Source: a virus. Taken from it: DNA of 64,000 nt. The stretch is from positions 1 through 64,000 of IMG/VR virus record IMGVR_UViG_3300021168_000003; one strand, given 5' to 3'. Position numbers and translations under genes: made by a program. Position 1 is the first letter of the stretch. Every line of letters begins with the position of its first letter. Of the stretch, positions 6,046 to 61,283 are shown piece after piece. Below the pieces are notes generated by a model. It ran no database searches. It saw only the letters and a list, made by a program, of their open reading frames with translations, and was not told the DNA's origin.

Positions 6046-7137
6046 ATGCCTCACCAATGGGTGTGGGCGGATGACCGCGTCGTCTCGATGGATTTCGAGA
6101 CGAGTGGCCTCCAGCCCGAATTTGCGCTGCAGTCATGGAGAATACTGTCAGGCGAGGCTTGGGCCACGTCGATGGTGTGGGTGTGGCCGCAGGATGGCCG
6201 CGTCATGAACGGCGGCGGTCTTGTGCGTGACCGGCTTCACGCCAGGGGCATGATCAACGAGTTCATCACTCACGTTCTGCACTACGACATCCGTGTCTGC
6301 GGCTGGAACCTCGCCTTCGACATCGGTGTCTTGATTGCTTACGGCGCGCCGATTGAGAAGCTGCGCCGAGTGAAGTGGCTCGATGGCTACCTGCTATGGC
6401 GTCACCTCGACGTCGAGCCTGAGTACGACGACAAGGGCCCGCGCCGGTCATACTCACTGAAGACCTACGTCCGCCAGCGATGGCCGCTCCAGGCTGGCTA
6501 CGAGGCCGATGTCAACTTCCATGATGACAGCCTAGAGGCTCGCGTCAAGCTTCATAGATACAACATTCAGGACTGTGTCTTCACCTTGATGGGCTGCAAG
6601 ACCCTTTGGAATGCGCTGACGCCAGCGCAGCAGCGCGCCGCATCGATCGAGGCCGACTGCCTTGTCCATGTGGCCGAGGCCAACGTGCGGGGCATGCTGG
6701 TGGACACCATCCTGGCCCAGGACGTGGTCATCAAGCAGAGCACCATCGCCGCCGAGAGGCTCGCCTCGCTCGCACCGTTCGGCGTCACTGAGAAGATCGT
6801 CCGGTCACCGAAGCAGCTGGCCACGCTGTTCTTCGACACGTGGGGTCTGCCGGTCCAGAAGAACACGGCCACCGGCAACCGGTCGACCGACAAAGAGGTC
6901 ATGCACGAGCTCGCATTCATCGACCCGCGGGTGAAGGAAGTGAAGGAGTACCGCGAGGCGCTCAACAATGTCACCAAGTTCGCCATGAACCCGATCGCGG
7001 CGGCGCGCTACAACGGCGACGGCCGGGCCCGGCCGCAGGCCATTGTGTTCGGGACCTACACCGGGCGCATGACCTATGCGAGCAAGCAGACGAAGAAGAA
7101 CCCCGAGGAGGCTGAGGTTGCCGACGCTTCCGACTGA
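6046..7137 (+). CDS. DNA polymerase family A, N-terminal fragment (3'-5' exonuclease and thumb)
   Basis: A 363-residue product. All three exonuclease motifs of the DnaQ type are present: SMDFET (D16, E18), WNLAFDI, and YNIQD. The C-terminal part reaches the family A motif TGRMTYASKQ (the TxR segment before motif A) and then ends with an unrelated acidic tail. The palm motifs A, B and C are in the separate gene at 7293. A normal PolA would be continuous here. The two fragments presumably assemble into a replicative polymerase. The gene heads the replication operon. Confidence 0.88.
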   Translation: MPHQWVWADDRVVSMDFETSGLQPEFALQSWRILSGEAWATSMVWVWPQDGRVMNGGGLVRDRLHARGMINEFITHVLHYDIRVCGWNLAFDIGVLIAYGAPIEKLRRVKWLDGYLLWRHLDVEPEYDDKGPRRSYSLKTYVRQRWPLQAGYEADVNFHDDSLEARVKLHRYNIQDCVFTLMGCKTLWNALTPAQQRAASIEADCLVHVAEANVRGMLVDTILAQDVVIKQSTIAAERLASLAPFGVTEKIVRSPKQLATLFFDTWGLPVQKNTATGNRSTDKEVMHELAFIDPRVKEVKEYREALNNVTKFAMNPIAAARYNGDGRARPQAIVFGTYTGRMTYASKQTKKNPEEAEVADASD

Positions 7138-7306
7138 CGATCCCTTCGACTGGGAGCTGTTCGACGAGCAGCCCTTGTCAGTGCGCAAGGTGACCTGGGA
7201 GTTCAACGTGTTCCCAGACAAGTTGGTCGAGCCGAAGGACGCCGCGCGCGCCGCGCTGCTGATGATTGAGTATTGGGAGACGAAGGTAGGCGATGGCACC
7301 CCGTAA
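7118..7306 (+). CDS. Small ORF between the two polymerase genes, 62 aa
   Basis: TTG 7118 has GAGGAG seven bases upstream. It overlaps the end of the N-terminal polymerase gene by 20 bases and the start of the C-terminal gene by 14. The product is acidic and aromatic at the start (TDDPFDWELFDEQP) with a helical C-terminus. It shows no similarity to a PolA segment, an intein or a homing endonuclease that I can see. The three genes occupy three different frames. Confidence 0.6.
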   Translation: MPTLPTDDPFDWELFDEQPLSVRKVTWEFNVFPDKLVEPKDAARAALLMIEYWETKVGDGTP

Positions 7307-8153
7307 GACCACTGACTTCCAGATCGGCTGGGCAGTACACCAGATGAAGAGCGGCCCCGACTACCGCTCGATCATCGTGGCTCCGCACGGTCACTCGATC
7401 GTGGAGTTTGACGCGGCTGGGCAGGAGTTTCGGTTCATGGCCTTGATCAGTGGCGACACCACCATGCTGCACCTTTGCAGGCCCGGCGAAGACCCGCACT
7501 CGTTCATGGGCTCGAGGGCTGACACCCGGTATGAGTACCGTGAGCTGATCAAGCGGGTGGCTGAGGAGGACAAGGAGGCCAAGCGTATCCGCAAGGGCGG
7601 CAAGGTGCTGAACCTTAGTCTCCAATATAGAACTTCCCCTAAAACATTACGTACAAGGTCACGCGTCGATCACGGCATGGACATGACGCCAGAGCAGGCG
7701 CAGCACAACTATTACGTCTACCACCGGACCTACCCCGGCGTGAAGGTTTATCACAAGACTGCGATCGAGAAGACGCAGCAGTGCGGATATGCCGAGACGT
7801 TAGCTGGCCGTCGAGTACAGGTTATAGGTGACTGGGATAGATATGGCTGGCAGCTTGGGTCTACTGCCATAAATTACCCTGTCCAGGGCACCGGCGCTTG
7901 TCAGAAATACTTGGCTATTCGTGCGCTCAGCGAATTGTACACTGAGTTGGGTGCAAGATTTATGCTGGATCTTCACGACGGTCTTTTCAGCGTTGTGCCG
8001 GATCATTACGTCAGTGAGTTCTGCGACCGTGGCAAGAGAATACTTGACAACCTCCCATATGGTTCAGCCTGGGGTTACACACCGTCCATCCCGCTGCCGT
8101 GGGACGTGAAGGTGGGGAAGAGCTGGGGCGCGCTTCATGAGGTGAAGTTGTGA
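7293..8153 (+). CDS. DNA polymerase family A, C-terminal fragment (palm/fingers)
   Basis: A 286-residue product; ATG 7293 has GAAGG upstream. Motif A is VEFDAAGQEFRFMA (catalytic Asp, with Q and E of the steric gate), motif B is KVLNLSLQYRTS, and motif C is LDLHDGLF. Motif C keeps the catalytic Asp, but the usual HDE is HDG. The QIGWAVHQMK segment would normally follow the TGR motif found in the upstream gene, so the break lies between the TGR motif and motif A. It is replication-related and acts with the 6046 gene. Confidence 0.88.
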   Translation: MAPRKTTDFQIGWAVHQMKSGPDYRSIIVAPHGHSIVEFDAAGQEFRFMALISGDTTMLHLCRPGEDPHSFMGSRADTRYEYRELIKRVAEEDKEAKRIRKGGKVLNLSLQYRTSPKTLRTRSRVDHGMDMTPEQAQHNYYVYHRTYPGVKVYHKTAIEKTQQCGYAETLAGRRVQVIGDWDRYGWQLGSTAINYPVQGTGACQKYLAIRALSELYTELGARFMLDLHDGLFSVVPDHYVSEFCDRGKRILDNLPYGSAWGYTPSIPLPWDVKVGKSWGALHEVKL

Positions 8154-52219: not shown

Positions 52220-53782
52220 TCACCGGCCATGATATTCGTTAACGTTATATTTTTCTGGTGTGAACAGCCTCCTGCCGCCAGCCTCCTGGAGCACAACCCC
52301 TTTGTGAAAGAAACGAAGGCCATACCCTCCAGCATCGCCAACGTGGGTCCATTGATTATCTTCTGGGCTTGCACCTTTTATTTCGTCCTTACGGACGTCA
52401 ATACCAAATCGCCAGCCACCTTTTAGCGCTCTAATAAGATTAGGACATTGACCACCGTCAATTTGAAGTTTTTGGCCCCCCTCAACTTGGTTCGTGAGGT
52501 AGTGATCGTAAGCATTGATGCGCAGCGGCATCCTGTTATTCGTCTCGGTCCAAGTACCGTGCGGGTAATATTTCTTGAAAGTCATCCGTACGCGTTTCTC
52601 ATCATTATCGTTGCGGATCATCGACGCAGGATCGAGCGAAAACATCAGGCGCGCGCCTGGAAACCGTTCGGCGACGTACGGCTGGACGCGTTCCTTGATC
52701 AGCCGCTCTGCGCCCATGCCTCGCTGTACGAGTTCGCCTAGGATGTTGACGCGGCCGTTCCACGCTTGCTGCATGAAGACGAAGGCAGAGCCCCCAAGAC
52801 CGGGGTCAGTGCCAACCACTAGGGTCTTACGCCGGTCGAACGGTAATGGAGTCAGCGAGACATGCTTGTCCGCGTAAAACGTGCCGATGACAGGCGTTCC
52901 TGCAGCTGAAAAGCCCCATTCGGCGTCGATATATTGCTTGACCCAGCCCAACGATTTGCCTTTGGCAAGGTTGGTGTAGTAGGAGCGTTTGCCTGGCAGG
53001 TTCTCTAGGTTCTCCGCGTCCTTCGAAAAGCCTGATGGCTGGATATAATACCACGCGTTATTGACGTGCGTGACGTTGCCATCTTCGTCGGTCTTAGTCG
53101 CGGTGTCCTTAGCGAAGCCTAATAGCCTTTGGCAGGCTTCTTGAGCCGCATCATCGTGCGGGAACGTGACCGGGATGCACCCTACGCGCTCGCCAGTCTC
53201 GTTATCGACTGTGCTGTGCAAGTAATCATACCACCAAAGGTCTTCTGTACCTGGGTTAGACTGTCCCCACATCCCCCAGTTGGTGACTGCGACGCCGCCG
53301 GGGGGCTTGTAGCGGCCGAGACGGCCTGACAGACCCTCCACGATCGCCTTAGGCACCTCGCGGAACTCGTCGATGATGGCGAAGGTGACCTCGAGGCCGA
53401 GCACGCGGACCACGTCGGCTGGGGTATCAAGAGGCCTGAAGAGGACTTCGCAGCAGACGTCACCGAAGCGCAGGGTGAACCGCTTGTCTGAGGCGTGCCA
53501 CTCGCCGAACTCGCCGTCCTTGAACCAGTAATTCCAGCTAACCAACGTGCTGTCGGTGAGCTGTGGGTTGGTGTTACGGACGACGACGGCGCGGGTGTAG
53601 CGAATGCCGTCTGGCGACGGCTCCTGCATGGACGCCATGTAGCATAGCTTGAAGAATGCCGCGGTGGTCTTCGCGGAACCGAAGGGGCCGACGATCCAGT
53701 CGTAGAAGAGCTCACCCTTGAGGTGGCGCTTCATGAAGGCTTTGGCTATGGGAGGGGGTGTGTAGTCGATTACTGAAGGCAT
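52220..53782 (-). CDS. terL: Terminase large subunit
   Basis: ATG 53782 is chosen for the GGAAGG six bases upstream. The ATPase shows IVGPFGSAKTTAAF (Walker A-like, ~30) and VTFAIIDEFRE (Walker B and catalytic Glu, ~135). The nuclease domain shows TDPGLGGSAFVF and FSLDPASM. It powers DNA packaging with the portal. Confidence 0.9.
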   Translation of the reverse strand: MPSVIDYTPPPIAKAFMKRHLKGELFYDWIVGPFGSAKTTAAFFKLCYMASMQEPSPDGIRYTRAVVVRNTNPQLTDSTLVSWNYWFKDGEFGEWHASDKRFTLRFGDVCCEVLFRPLDTPADVVRVLGLEVTFAIIDEFREVPKAIVEGLSGRLGRYKPPGGVAVTNWGMWGQSNPGTEDLWWYDYLHSTVDNETGERVGCIPVTFPHDDAAQEACQRLLGFAKDTATKTDEDGNVTHVNNAWYYIQPSGFSKDAENLENLPGKRSYYTNLAKGKSLGWVKQYIDAEWGFSAAGTPVIGTFYADKHVSLTPLPFDRRKTLVVGTDPGLGGSAFVFMQQAWNGRVNILGELVQRGMGAERLIKERVQPYVAERFPGARLMFSLDPASMIRNDNDEKRVRMTFKKYYPHGTWTETNNRMPLRINAYDHYLTNQVEGGQKLQIDGGQCPNLIRALKGGWRFGIDVRKDEIKGASPEDNQWTHVGDAGGYGLRFFHKGVVLQEAGGRRLFTPEKYNVNEYHGR

Positions 53783-53982
53783 ATCAAGCCTTCCGGGATG
53801 ATCTGCCACCCATACTTACGCCCAGGCGCACCAGGTGGTGCGTAGGTCCACACCAGGATGTGACCGGCTGGCAACACTGGCAGACCACTGGCCTTCGCTC
53901 CGAACTCAGACAGGAGCGGGCGCGCGCCGAGGAACCGGGCGACGTCTTCCGAGCATCGGATCATGACAGGGAGAAGGGTCAC
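53770..53982 (-). CDS. Small hypothetical protein, 70 aa
   Basis: GTG 53982 overlaps the previous stop (GTGA), and an in-frame GTG at 53988 also exists. The end overlaps the terminase start. The product has SEDVARFLGARPLL and a hydrophobic HILVWTYAPPG stretch. An exact CACTGACA lies on its start. Unknown role. Confidence 0.55.
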   Translation of the reverse strand: MTLLPVMIRCSEDVARFLGARPLLSEFGAKASGLPVLPAGHILVWTYAPPGAPGRKYGWQIIPEGLICLQ

Positions 53983-54227: not shown

Positions 54228-54427
54228 ACGTCAGCATCTGGTTTGAAACGTAGGCCACGGTCGTCGAGGATGATGTCGACGTGGCGACCGTCAGGTGCGT
54301 GCCAAGCCACGAACTCGATGAAGCGGAGGAACAAGTCCCACGCCTCGTCGCGGAAGATCGTGATGTCATCACACTCGCAGAGCTGATCCCTCAGTTCGGG
54401 GGTGACTACGGCTGTGGCGATGCCCAT
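54224..54427 (-). CDS. Small hypothetical protein, 67 aa
   Basis: ATG 54427 overlaps the stop of the protease gene (TGATG). The product is acidic with two cysteines (QLCECDD) and a helix with aromatic residues (AWDLFLRFIEFVAWH). Unknown. Confidence 0.6.
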   Translation of the reverse strand: MGIATAVVTPELRDQLCECDDITIFRDEAWDLFLRFIEFVAWHAPDGRHVDIILDDRGLRFKPDADV

Positions 54428-55065
54428 CAGAAGTGGTGGCCGGAACGGCACGCCTCTTGGCCGGAGACCATGAAATTCACTGCGCCACGGGCTTGCTTGT
54501 TCGTGGACTCAGTGATGATACCGAGGATGCGCCCATAGGCGTCGTAGACCGGCCCACCGGAGTTGCCTGGGGTGATCACGGCGCTGATCGGCACCTCATC
54601 GGCGTCGTCGGTCGTGCGTCCGACACCCGCGACCACGCCAGTGGTGTGGACGAACGTGAACCCGTAGGGGTTGCCGACGACCTCGATCGGCTCACCGATC
54701 TGTGGGGCGCGACAGGACAGTGTAGCACTCTGCGCGTTGATCTCACCAGTCAGGTGGTAGGCTGCGATGTCGGCCGTCGGTGACTGCCACTCCAAAAATG
54801 CGTCGATCGCCGGGCCCGGCTTGCCGTGCTGATCCAGTACGACCCGGGCGTTTTTGAACTCGTCGCCGGTGCAGTGCTTCGCCGTCAGGACCGTACCGTG
54901 GCCGATGTAGACGCCGCTGCAAATTCCGGGGGAGCCGTCCTCGGTCGTCAAAAGGATCTCAACGTCCGAGGAGGGTAGGCGACTGTTGACGTGCCTGTCA
55001 ACGAAGGCCCCTCCTAGAAGTGTGCCTGCCAATAGAGTGGCTAGGATACCAACAACCCTGCTCAT
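54427..55065 (-). CDS. Exported trypsin-like serine protease, 212 aa
   Basis: An N-terminal hydrophobic signal or anchor (VVGILATLLAGTLLGGAFV) is followed by a chymotrypsin-fold protease. The triad is visible: His64 in LTAKHC, Asp99 in TADIAAY and Ser169 in TPGNSGGP. Cysteines at 49, 65 and 118 could form a disulfide. Exported proteases are unusual in tailed phages. It may act in the periplasm of a lysogen or during lysis. Confidence 0.82.
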   Translation of the reverse strand: MSRVVGILATLLAGTLLGGAFVDRHVNSRLPSSDVEILLTTEDGSPGICSGVYIGHGTVLTAKHCTGDEFKNARVVLDQHGKPGPAIDAFLEWQSPTADIAAYHLTGEINAQSATLSCRAPQIGEPIEVVGNPYGFTFVHTTGVVAGVGRTTDDADEVPISAVITPGNSGGPVYDAYGRILGIITESTNKQARGAVNFMVSGQEACRSGHHF

Positions 55066-57516: not shown

Positions 57517-57954
57517 TCACCCTAGGTTGATATTGATCACGGCTTGGACCGTGGATGAGCCAGCCTTGCCGGCGGCTGCGCCCTTCTGGTCGATCGAGGC
57601 GTCGAGGCCCGCGATGCGCACCACGAACTTGAGCAGGTCCGCTCGGACGTTCGAAGGGACCACGTTGGGGTTCTCCTCGGACGCCATGGTGTGGATGTCT
57701 TTGAGCAGCACCTCGGCCATCGTCTTGGCCTTCATCCGGAAGCTGCCGCCCTCGGACGCCGCCATGTCACGGGCTTCCTTGCAGGCCTGCAGGAAGACCC
57801 TGTTGTGCTTGAGGCGCTCCCAGTCGTCCTGAGCGAGGCCGTACTCCTCGAGGAGCTGCTTCGGCGTCCCATTGCCCAGCGCGAGCTCGACCGGGAGCAT
57901 GGGCGGGAAGCCCAAGTCGCTAGGGTCCTTGTCGACTAGGGCGGGCAAGTTCAT
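57517..57954 (-). CDS. Possible terminase small subunit, 145 aa
   Basis: The product is mostly helical: KQLLEEYGLAQDDWERLKHN gives an HTH-like pattern, followed by KAKTMAEVLLKDIHTMAS and LLKFVVRIAGLD. Layout and length resemble podovirus small terminases, but the gene lies ~4 kb from terL. It overlaps the upstream gene by one base (TGATG). Confidence 0.5.
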   Translation of the reverse strand: MNLPALVDKDPSDLGFPPMLPVELALGNGTPKQLLEEYGLAQDDWERLKHNRVFLQACKEARDMAASEGGSFRMKAKTMAEVLLKDIHTMASEENPNVVPSNVRADLLKFVVRIAGLDASIDQKGAAAGKAGSSTVQAVININLG

Positions 57955-58331
57955 CAGAGCTTGGAGAGCCCGAGGATCAGCTTGTCGAGGATGCGATCCT
58001 TGAGGGTGAGAGGGCGATCCTCAAGCCGGGCGATGCGGGAGTAGACGTCGCAGAGGTCGCGGTCGAGCGCGTTGAACTTGTCGTAAAGCTCAGTGGTGCG
58101 GTCCTGGGTAGTCTCCCAGATCTTCTCGCCGCGTTTGTGGCGCTCCCATAGGTCGTCGATGCGGCCCTTGATCTGATCGATGTGTCCTTGCCCCAGCGGA
58201 TTGCCCGGGCCTGGGATAAAGCCAAGCTCGACCTCGATCGCGTGGAGGCGCTTCAAGATGTCCACATCGAGGGAGCGGTGGAAGGCTGAGTCCGGGTGGG
58301 AGGGTGCCGTACACCCAGGATAGTCACACAT
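57954..58331 (-). CDS. Coiled-coil protein with an N-terminal cysteine/histidine element, 125 aa
   Basis: ATG 58331 has AAGGA five bases upstream. It opens MCDYPGCTAPSHPDSAFH (possible zinc element) and continues as a long coiled coil (IDDLWERHKRGEKIWETT, YSRIARLEDRPLTL). It is the second gene after the Acb2-like gene. Unknown. Confidence 0.55.
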   Translation of the reverse strand: MCDYPGCTAPSHPDSAFHRSLDVDILKRLHAIEVELGFIPGPGNPLGQGHIDQIKGRIDDLWERHKRGEKIWETTQDRTTELYDKFNALDRDLCDVYSRIARLEDRPLTLKDRILDKLILGLSKL

Positions 58332-58332
58332 G

Positions 58333-58569
58333 TCAGTCCTTCCAGGTGATCGCTTTGACGGCCCACATCTGCGCGGTCTGGGCCTCGGTGATGGCGATCG
58401 AGAAGAGGCGCGCGCGTTCCGGTGTGTCGTAACCGGCGAACGCCTGAGCGCGCTGTTCGTCGCAGAAGTCGATGATCTCGGCGTAGAGCCGCTTGACCCT
58501 GTCGACCGCGCTGTCATTCGATGGGTTGAACGAAAGGCCGACCGCCTTCTCTCCGTATGTCTGGGTCAT
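58333..58569 (-). CDS. Acb2/Tad1-hairpin-like protein, candidate anti-CBASS cyclic nucleotide sponge
   Basis: A 78-residue product. Residues ~21-40 (AVDRVKRLYAEIIDFCDEQ) and ~51-75 (ERARLFSIAITEAQTAQMWA then VKAIT) form two helices. The MWAVKA end and the xAIT helix are what I recall as typical of the Acb2/Tad1 hairpin family, small proteins that bind cyclic di- and trinucleotides to stop CBASS. It is the first gene after an operator-bearing promoter and a possible attenuator. Family assignment is from memory. Confidence 0.6.
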   Translation of the reverse strand: MTQTYGEKAVGLSFNPSNDSAVDRVKRLYAEIIDFCDEQRAQAFAGYDTPERARLFSIAITEAQTAQMWAVKAITWKD

Positions 58570-58593
58570 CTCAGTGTACCGTTTGAGTTGGGT

Positions 58594-58644
58594 AAAAAAG
58601 TGGGGGCTAGCGTCGACGCACTTAAGCGAGCGCGGCCAGCCCCC
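58594..58644 (-). terminator. Leader terminator/attenuator before the Acb2-like gene
   Basis: On the minus strand, GGGGGCT (58644-58638) pairs with AGCCCCC (58608-58602), with an inner GCGTCGACGC palindrome, followed by ACTTTTTTACC. It lies between the promoter at 58692 and the start codon at 58569, so it would control read-through. Confidence 0.55.
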
Positions 58645-58691
58645 AAGTCGGGGGGAGGAACAGCGCCGGGAGTCTAAGTCGGCGCAGCACT

Positions 58692-58720
58692 GAGATAGGA
58701 CGTCAGTGTCCTGACGTCAA
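58692..58720 (-). promoter_or_regulatory. Promoter with AGGACACTGAC operator, reading left
   Basis: Minus strand: TTGACG (58720-58715), spacer of 17 with AGGACACTGACGTCC, TATCTC (58697-58692) followed by AGTG. The order TTGACn-2 bp-AGGACACTGAC equals that of the + strand promoter at 2287. Confidence 0.75.
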
Positions 58721-58723
58721 GGG

Positions 58724-60226
58724 CTAGAGGACAAAGTTGGCCGCGGTGAGCACCGGGTTGCCAGCGAGCTTGAGCTGCATGTCAGGGTAGAAGCTGCCCG
58801 GCATGTAGACGCTGACCAGGGTGTAAGTCCCCAAGGTGGATAGGGCGACCTGGCTGCCGCCTGTCGGCGCGGCAGCGCCAATGAAGGTGAATGCGCCCAT
58901 GGCGCTGAGGTCGATCACGTCGGTCGCCACGTTGAACCCGGTGATCACGTCAGGCTGCTGCGGCTGGCTATCGCCGGGCGAGAGGTAGACGAAGACGCTG
59001 GGCTGGCCGGCCGCGGTGTTGATATACTGGCCGCCGAAGCCGCCGACGAAGGTGTTGGGCTTAGTCGTGACCCCGTAGAGGTGGGCCAGCGGAACGCCGC
59101 TGTAGAGGACGTTGGCCTTGTTGGGGTAGGCGCTCCACGCCGCCGCGGACCACTGAGGGTTGTGGTAGTCGACGACCGTGTTGGGCGTCATGGTGATGTT
59201 GGGGCCCGGGCTTGGGCTGGAGCTGAGCGGGTAGAACTCATAGCTGCTCCAGAAGCCGATGTAGTTGCCCGTGACGTTGATGTTGTTGATCTGGCCATAC
59301 TGGCCTTGCACCCCGGTGAAGGGTGCCACGAGGTAGCCGATCGTCGACTGCTGGATGTCGACCGTCGCCGCGCCGCCGAGCAGGATGTTGTTGGTCGCGG
59401 TGACGCCCATCACGTTGTCGCCGCCGTCGGTGCGGATGTAGAGCGCGGCGTTCATGTTGCCCAGGCCGCCCGTGGGGTAGTTGTACCAGCCCGCGACGTT
59501 CCAGTTTGTCCCGTCGATCGTGTTGCCGTTGATCGTGACCGGGCCGCAGGTGCAGGGCACTGAGATGGCATCGGCGTGCGTCAAGCTGACGTTGGCCAGG
59601 CCGTTGAAGAAGCACCCGGTGACCGAACCGGCCGCGAGGTGGATGGCGTGGCTGGGGATGTCCTGGAAGAGGCATCCCGAGATTGCGCACACGCCTGCAT
59701 TGCCTGAGATCGCCCCAAGGCCTGGGCCGTTGGGCGCGGGCGTGGCGAACGACCCGATAAAGGAGCAGCCCGTCACCGTCAGCGCGAGGACCCCCGTCTG
59801 GTTCTGGATGACGAACGTGGCCGGGCCGTTGAAGTCGAACAGGCAGTTGATGAAGCTGACGCCTTGGCCCCAGTTGACGATCGACCAGCCCCGGAAGTCG
59901 ACGTTGGCGAACGTCTGACCGTTGACGCCGGTGCCGATGTTGATGGTGTTGGCCTGCGTGGTGAGGATGGTCGTCAGCGCGGCGTTAGCGCCGGTGCGCA
60001 ACGGGATGATCGACGCCGGCAGGATCATCCCTCCAGGAGGCGAGACGCACCCGACCTTGGTGTCGATGCCTGTGATCTTGTAGCCGACCGGCAGGCACGC
60101 GCGCAGCATCGAGAGTTTGAGCGGGCTCAGCAGCGGCAAGGTCACGCCTGCGACGGGGGGCAGGGCCGCCGAGGCTGAGTACGAGAACCCATCCGCAGCC
60201 GCGAAGTTGACGGTGACCGAGCTCAT
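58724..60226 (-). CDS. Beta-helix tailspike-like protein with RTX-like end, 500 aa
   Basis: Residues ~85-330 contain regular right-handed beta-helix rungs (ANVDFRGWSIVNWGQGVSFI, VTGCSFIGSF, GCLFQDIPSHAIHLAAG). The C-terminus has DVITGFNVATDVIDLSAMG, the motif found after RTX calcium repeats and in some depolymerases. It might degrade or bind surface polysaccharide. It stands apart from the other tail genes, close to the tRNAs. Confidence 0.65.
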   Translation of the reverse strand: MSSVTVNFAAADGFSYSASAALPPVAGVTLPLLSPLKLSMLRACLPVGYKITGIDTKVGCVSPPGGMILPASIIPLRTGANAALTTILTTQANTINIGTGVNGQTFANVDFRGWSIVNWGQGVSFINCLFDFNGPATFVIQNQTGVLALTVTGCSFIGSFATPAPNGPGLGAISGNAGVCAISGCLFQDIPSHAIHLAAGSVTGCFFNGLANVSLTHADAISVPCTCGPVTINGNTIDGTNWNVAGWYNYPTGGLGNMNAALYIRTDGGDNVMGVTATNNILLGGAATVDIQQSTIGYLVAPFTGVQGQYGQINNINVTGNYIGFWSSYEFYPLSSSPSPGPNITMTPNTVVDYHNPQWSAAAWSAYPNKANVLYSGVPLAHLYGVTTKPNTFVGGFGGQYINTAAGQPSVFVYLSPGDSQPQQPDVITGFNVATDVIDLSAMGAFTFIGAAAPTGGSQVALSTLGTYTLVSVYMPGSFYPDMQLKLAGNPVLTAANFVL

Positions 60227-60802: not shown

Positions 60803-61283
60803 ACAGTCCTAAGAATGTAGCACGGTTCGGACGTGCGTCAACGGTCGCGCGCTTGAGGAGATAGGCAGTTGGCAGAAACTAGCAGGAAATTGGCAGGCAA
60901 AAGCAGGACGCTGCCCGAAGGATGTAGCATGGTTCGGCCAAGAAAGAAAAAAGGACCGCAGCCCTCTGGTGCCGTTAGGCAGTTGTCCCCAGGGCTGCGG
61001 TCGAGTCTGGCCTAACTGCTAGGTGGGACCAGGAATGGTTTCCTAGCGGTACTGATATGGCAGCATTGTTGACGGGAAACAATAGGTGATTCTACGTAGT
61101 TTGTACGGAGTCTAAGCTGGTATTGGTTTGAGCAGAAGTACAACAGAAATGTTAGGGAGTTGCTTAAGTAAATTTGCTAAAAAATTTTCAAAAAGTTACG
61201 CGTGCTACGATGGAACCGCGCGACGCCATAGCAACTCTTTCCCCCCTTACACCCCTTCAAAAGCAAAGAATGCTTATTCGCCT
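60803..61283. other. Non-coding region with hairpins
   Basis: No convincing gene. A 12-bp perfect stem, GACCGCAGCCCT (60954-60965) with AGGGCTGCGGTC (60991-61002), is followed on the minus strand by CTTTTTTCTTTC, which makes a strong leftward terminator of an unknown transcript. At 61021-61037 the start-context motif GGGACCAGGA precedes ATGGTTTCCTAG, a three-codon ORF enclosed by ACTGCTAGG/CCTAGCGGT arms. From ~61090 the DNA becomes AT-rich. Confidence 0.6.
60942..61002 (-). terminator. Strong leftward terminator
   Basis: A perfect 12-bp stem with a 25-base loop followed by CTTTTTTCTTTC on the minus strand. It blocks transcription coming from the right before the tRNA genes, or marks the 3' end of a small RNA. 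Confidence 0.75.

Follow-up and report, generated by a model that had tools for sequence, protein, structure and literature searches.

The window analysed here is the whole stretch of 64,000 bases taken from an IMG/VR virus record of 65,953 bases. On its minus strand, an ORF of 78 codons runs from 58569 to 58333 and encodes MTQTYGEKAVGLSFNPSNDSAVDRVKRLYAEIIDFCDEQRAQAFAGYDTPERARLFSIAITEAQTAQMWAVKAITWKD. The same bases are also open on the plus strand, and all homologues correspond to the minus-strand frame. The minus-strand ORF is coding: its relatives reach about 60-75% identity at the protein level, and many residues are near-invariant across roughly 100 of them. The features of the locus are collected in Table 1.

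Table 1. Features at and around the acb2-like gene
Feature	Position	Strand	Remarks
Terminase large subunit	52220..53809	-	phrog_979, 3e-05; 71 relatives
145-aa ORF	57517..57954	-	overlaps stop of 125-aa ORF; no family match
125-aa ORF	57954..58331	-	starts 1 nt after acb2-like stop
Acb2/Tad1-hairpin protein gene	58333..58569	-	78 aa, ATG start, TGA stop; PF24729, PHROG, relatives, AlphaFold model
MWAVKA codons (residues 68-73)	58351..58368	-	near end of second long helix; aligned with MWACRA of T4 Acb2
CACTGAGAT overlapping start codon	58568..58576	-	perfect pairing with 58688-58696 (ATCTCAGTG); possible long-range leader pairing
Intrinsic terminator-like hairpin	58590..58646	-	stem 58635-58645 / 58601-58611, then T6 58599-58594
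Perfect 8-bp inverted repeat GACGTCAG-N4-CTGACGTC	58699..58718	.	operator-like or hairpin, putative
500-aa probable tail/appendage protein, upstream of leader	58724..60226	-	PF08548 just over cut-off; role inferred

The 125-aa ORF that follows the gene has no family match, and no relative of it was found in IMG/VR. Judged by where it lies and how long it is, and by nothing else, the 145-aa ORF behind it is likely the terminase small subunit. Genes for the portal protein (head-tail adaptor family) and the major head protein lie further down the same strand. Early expression of the gene, as suggested in an earlier note on this DNA, finds no support, as the gene shares its strand with the packaging and structural genes. 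The opposite strand carries an integrase gene, and the phage is therefore probably temperate. The stretch between the acb2-like gene and the terminase is accessory and includes a trypsin-like protease that is probably secreted or membrane-anchored (54427-55065, minus strand; PF13365, 7e-19). Elsewhere in the window, the DNA polymerase gene is seemingly split into 6046-7137 and 7293-8153 on the plus strand (phrog_17 positions 668-979 and 993-1235).

The earlier note had assigned the protein to the Acb2/Tad1 hairpin family and had set a family-model search beforehand as a test that could refute the assignment. In this search, the protein matches PF24729 (Acb2/Tad1 hairpin) with 45.7 bits against a cut-off of 27, with residues 15-75 covering profile positions 3-57 of 58, and the assignment is correct. 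T4 Acb2 scores 71.4 bits against the same profile, and phrog_717 matches both proteins over the same C-terminal region. Moreover, remote homology between the branch to which the window protein belongs and Acb2 is well supported, because a profile-profile comparison by hhalign of about 100 branch members with 11 T4-like or canonical Acb2 sequences gives a probability of 95.6% (E 1.2e-8). Acb2 was not found when the PDB was searched with the single sequence of the window protein, and a 13-sequence profile reached T4 Vs.4 at E 0.25 only, in the MWA region. A search of NCBIfam with the window protein gave no match. The weak PADLOC match to HamA (E 0.041) and the PDB matches to de novo designed proteins and CasRx were rejected as helical chance matches.

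The predicted fold agrees with this assignment. An AlphaFold2 model of the single chain, built from 13 sequences (pLDDT 92.9), contains a short helix at residues 5-10 and two long helices at 20-45 and 50-75, which equals the published description of the Acb2 protomer as a short N-terminal helix and a two-helix hairpin (PMC10419184). Sequence and model thus bear out the claimed 78-aa two-helix protein with MWAVKA near its end. A Foldseek search of the viral models in BFVD returned two 'Acb2/Tad1 hairpin domain-containing' proteins as its first matches (probability 1.00; E 1.3e-3 and 2.5e-3). Against the PDB, where helical hairpins give little power, Foldseek found no Acb2 and nothing useful. 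As a control, we modelled a canonical Acb2 from a terminase relative of the window phage (L133). Although this model was of low confidence (pLDDT 67), its top three PDB matches were 8h2x, 8h2j and 7uq2. Because even a poor canonical model finds Acb2, the negative PDB result speaks for divergence rather than unrelatedness, and by these models the window protein appears measurably divergent from canonical Acb2. Tad1 (Thoeris anti-defence 1) has the PF24729 hairpin domain in common with the window protein, by Pfam definition. However, Tad1 carries an N-terminal antiparallel beta-sheet (b1-b4) ahead of its helices (PMC12043709), whereas the 78-aa model has no strands, and identity with Tad1 is thereby ruled out.

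Comparison with T4 Acb2/Vs.4 (7uq2) and Pseudomonas Acb2 p26 (8h2j, 8h2x, 8ixz) shows what has been kept and what has been replaced. In addition to PF24729 and phrog_717, these proteins have in common with the window protein the short N-terminal helix and two long antiparallel helices, an IK/VK lysine, an AxT motif and the MW(A)x(K/R)A signature, which is present as MWA-x-[KR]-A in the second long helix of the window protein. In the alignment of about 100 branch relatives, M68, V71 and K72 are invariant and W69 and A73 are conserved in at least 95%; K26 is also invariant and T61 is found in 91%. The hhalign register places K26 on T4 K23, the equivalent of K26 in the Pseudomonas Acb2 structure, and T61 on T4 T68, so the conserved lysine and threonine of Acb2 are both kept. 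The lysine presumably has a role in ligand binding. For the threonine, the T68M variant of T4 Acb2 has been reported to have lower binding affinity (PMC12657230).

By contrast, the window protein is without the GY(K/R) N-terminal motif and the xPxxF/Y tail, its inter-helix loop is shorter, and it has an additional TYGEKAVGLxFNPS segment. Residues Y8 and F82 of T4 Acb2 have been linked to cyclic dinucleotide binding, including an effect of Y8A (PMC12657218). No GY motif occurs at the matching distance from the lysine in the window protein, where the nearest aromatics are Y5 and F14. Similarly, F82 and the xPxxF/Y tail have no one-to-one counterpart in the branch alignment, which terminates in T75-W76-(K/R). 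The branch instead has its own conserved set, namely Y/F5, G6, V10, G11, F14, N15, P16, T75 and W/Y/F76. From the alignment, F14 and W76 would be the obvious candidates to stand in for Y8 and F82, respectively.

On the profile matches, we regard the window protein as a genuine member of the PF24729 hairpin superfamily. It is neither a canonical Acb2, by residue criteria, nor a Tad1; it belongs to a divergent, apparently uncharacterised branch, 'T(Y/F)GEKAVGLxFNPS...AQMWAVKAxTW'. An acb2-like gene is an expected kind of gene for a phage, and this one is a new member of a known family rather than a surprise.

We propose, with a probability of roughly 70%, that the window protein works as an Acb2-type phage nucleotide sponge. 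The protein would probably be expressed along with the packaging/late genes of a temperate phage and would assemble as a compact oligomer; characterised relatives form a hexamer. The conserved basic and polar residues of the hairpins, together with the branch-specific aromatics, may then bind second messengers of the nucleotide type, for example cyclic di- or trinucleotides. Holding these messengers without cleavage would keep CBASS-type (or similar) effectors inactive during phage replication. Ligand binding and anti-CBASS activity are thus predicted, and the specificity may differ from that of canonical Acb2, because Y8, F82 and the xPxxF/Y tail lack exact counterparts; with the canonical stacking residues replaced, a ligand other than 3',3'-cGAMP is possible.

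A tentative alternative, which overlaps with the sponge proposal, is that the branch has the same family and fold and sequesters another signal, which might be a gcADPR isomer, some other nucleotide or cyclic trinucleotides alone. The protein would then be a sponge whose main target is not cGAMP or CBASS. The replacement of the T4 stacking aromatics and tail by the near-invariants Y/F5, F14, N15, T75 and W76 in a branch that keeps the core hairpin positions would fit such a shift, as would the differing ligand range among published Tad1/Acb2 sponges (PMC12043709). However, F14 could replace Y8, given that the PF24729 match starts with N15 at profile position 3 in the window protein and with G7 at position 1 in T4 Acb2, and W76 could likewise replace F82. 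We think it unlikely that the TYGEKAVGLxFNPS / AQMWAVKAxTW branch constitutes a distinct sponge class whose replaced ligand contacts would direct it to a signal other than that of known Acb2, possibly one from a defence system without a known sponge.

The earlier note had further given the gene an operator-bearing promoter of its own and a leader terminator. The leader does contain a strong hairpin followed by T6, with an 11-pair stem (dG -30.2 kcal/mol) that is among the two strongest in the window; a shuffling control of 10 windows yielded 32 terminators, the best at -26.0 and all weaker than the leader hairpin. The other of these two, at 60952, and the leader terminator at 58599 bracket the tail-gene block 60680-58724 on the minus strand. 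The leader terminator is therefore most simply the end of this upstream tail-gene unit, and no attenuation is needed to account for it. The claimed promoter found no support, as no sigma-70-like site upstream of the gene passes the scan, and the best reading (TTGACG-17-TATCTC, 8/12) is commonplace, equally good sites occurring about 2.4 times per kb on the same strand. As for the operator, the perfect 8-bp palindrome GACGTCAG-N4-CTGACGTC exists and occurs once in the window, and its exact sequence was absent from IMG/VR. It is not special, because the window holds 30 perfect 8-bp inverted repeats with loops of 3-8 nt, against 9.75 after shuffling (about threefold, with nested matches counted), and an operator-bearing promoter is unsupported.

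In view of these results, we consider leader control of the gene quite improbable. In such a scheme, a promoter near 58720-58692 would be repressed through the palindrome, its operator, and the 58599 terminator would attenuate transcription of the gene. The strength of the hairpin, the location of the palindrome between two candidate promoter hexamers and the 9-bp repeat able to pair with the start codon would speak for such control. Against it stand the promoter scan, the single occurrence of the palindrome and the bracketing of the tail genes, and the leader was not recovered in relatives; L086-L088, the closest terminase relatives, have terminase and portal DNA in common with the window but not the leader region. 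The possible CACTGAGAT/ATCTCAGTG pairing would arise by chance with a probability of about 3%, by our own estimate. No Shine-Dalgarno sequence for the acb2-like start codon is present at 58570-58600 on the minus strand, whereas one is present in 65 of 80 relatives. The missing Shine-Dalgarno and the 9-mer able to pair with the start codon hint at a candidate translational control or coupling.

Most known Acb2-type sponges come from T4-like and Pseudomonas phages. The branch described here is widespread, being common in environmental phages and also found in phages and prophages of diverse bacteria. An IMG/VR scan gave 280 branch loci, tblastn found 158 phage records with the branch, and a genome collection held 39 branch loci on contigs of Bacteroidota, Pasteurellaceae, Burkholderiales, Saccharibacteria and others. 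Homologues with 44-63% identity over nearly the full length occur in Enterobacter phage EcP1, Pasteurella phage Pmp11, Phage DSL-LC05, Aaphi23 and Flavobacterium elemo phages, where they are annotated as hypothetical protein only and have differing neighbourhoods. In the literature searched, no papers testing the branch were found. The window gene alone is an ordinary accessory counter-defence candidate; the function of the branch bears on how far sponge activity reaches past the characterised ligand pocket. A SMODS nucleotidyltransferase was over the cut-off in only 5 of the 29 host genomes carrying the branch, a count that would speak against the sponge proposal but is uninformative without a matched background.

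The neighbourhoods also bear on whether the protein might instead be a small helical factor associated with terminase or portal, with a housekeeping role in packaging or in the lysis-to-packaging transition, other parts of the family having gained or lost nucleotide binding. In Pmp11 and Aaphi23, the terminase genes directly follow the branch gene, and large terminase subunit families are matched by at least 7 of the 96 neighbours that were scanned for loci outside the group with a shared neighbourhood. In Vibrio phage D182, a canonical relative directly follows the portal gene. Among 31 terminase-relative records searched, many of which are fragments, four carry a canonical, GYR-type PF24729 protein, and in three of these (L125, L133 and L138) its gene lies directly before the large terminase gene. 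Such frequent terminase adjacency and the high conservation among phages of great diversity could point to a role less shaped by an arms race. On the other hand, 35 of 80 viral loci of the branch lie in a different shared neighbourhood, the gene is away from the packaging genes in the N4-like genome of EcP1, it adjoins recombination genes outside the terminase region in a Flavobacterium elemo phage, and T4 acb2 sits among small accessory genes. Moreover, no acb2-like gene was found in the available stretches of L086-L088, many records being fragments in which absence is not proof. Given these varied neighbourhoods and the absence in L086-L088, the gene looks dispensable and mobile. Gain, loss and replacement of an accessory gene are more in keeping with counter-defence than with a component of the virion, and we regard the housekeeping role as very unlikely. 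The canonical Acb2-like loci (GYRQL...NEIK) of the terminase relatives lie at L133:5526-5810, L138:2-229 and L125:1423-2016, and the L125 copy carries an in-frame TAG in its C-terminal part.
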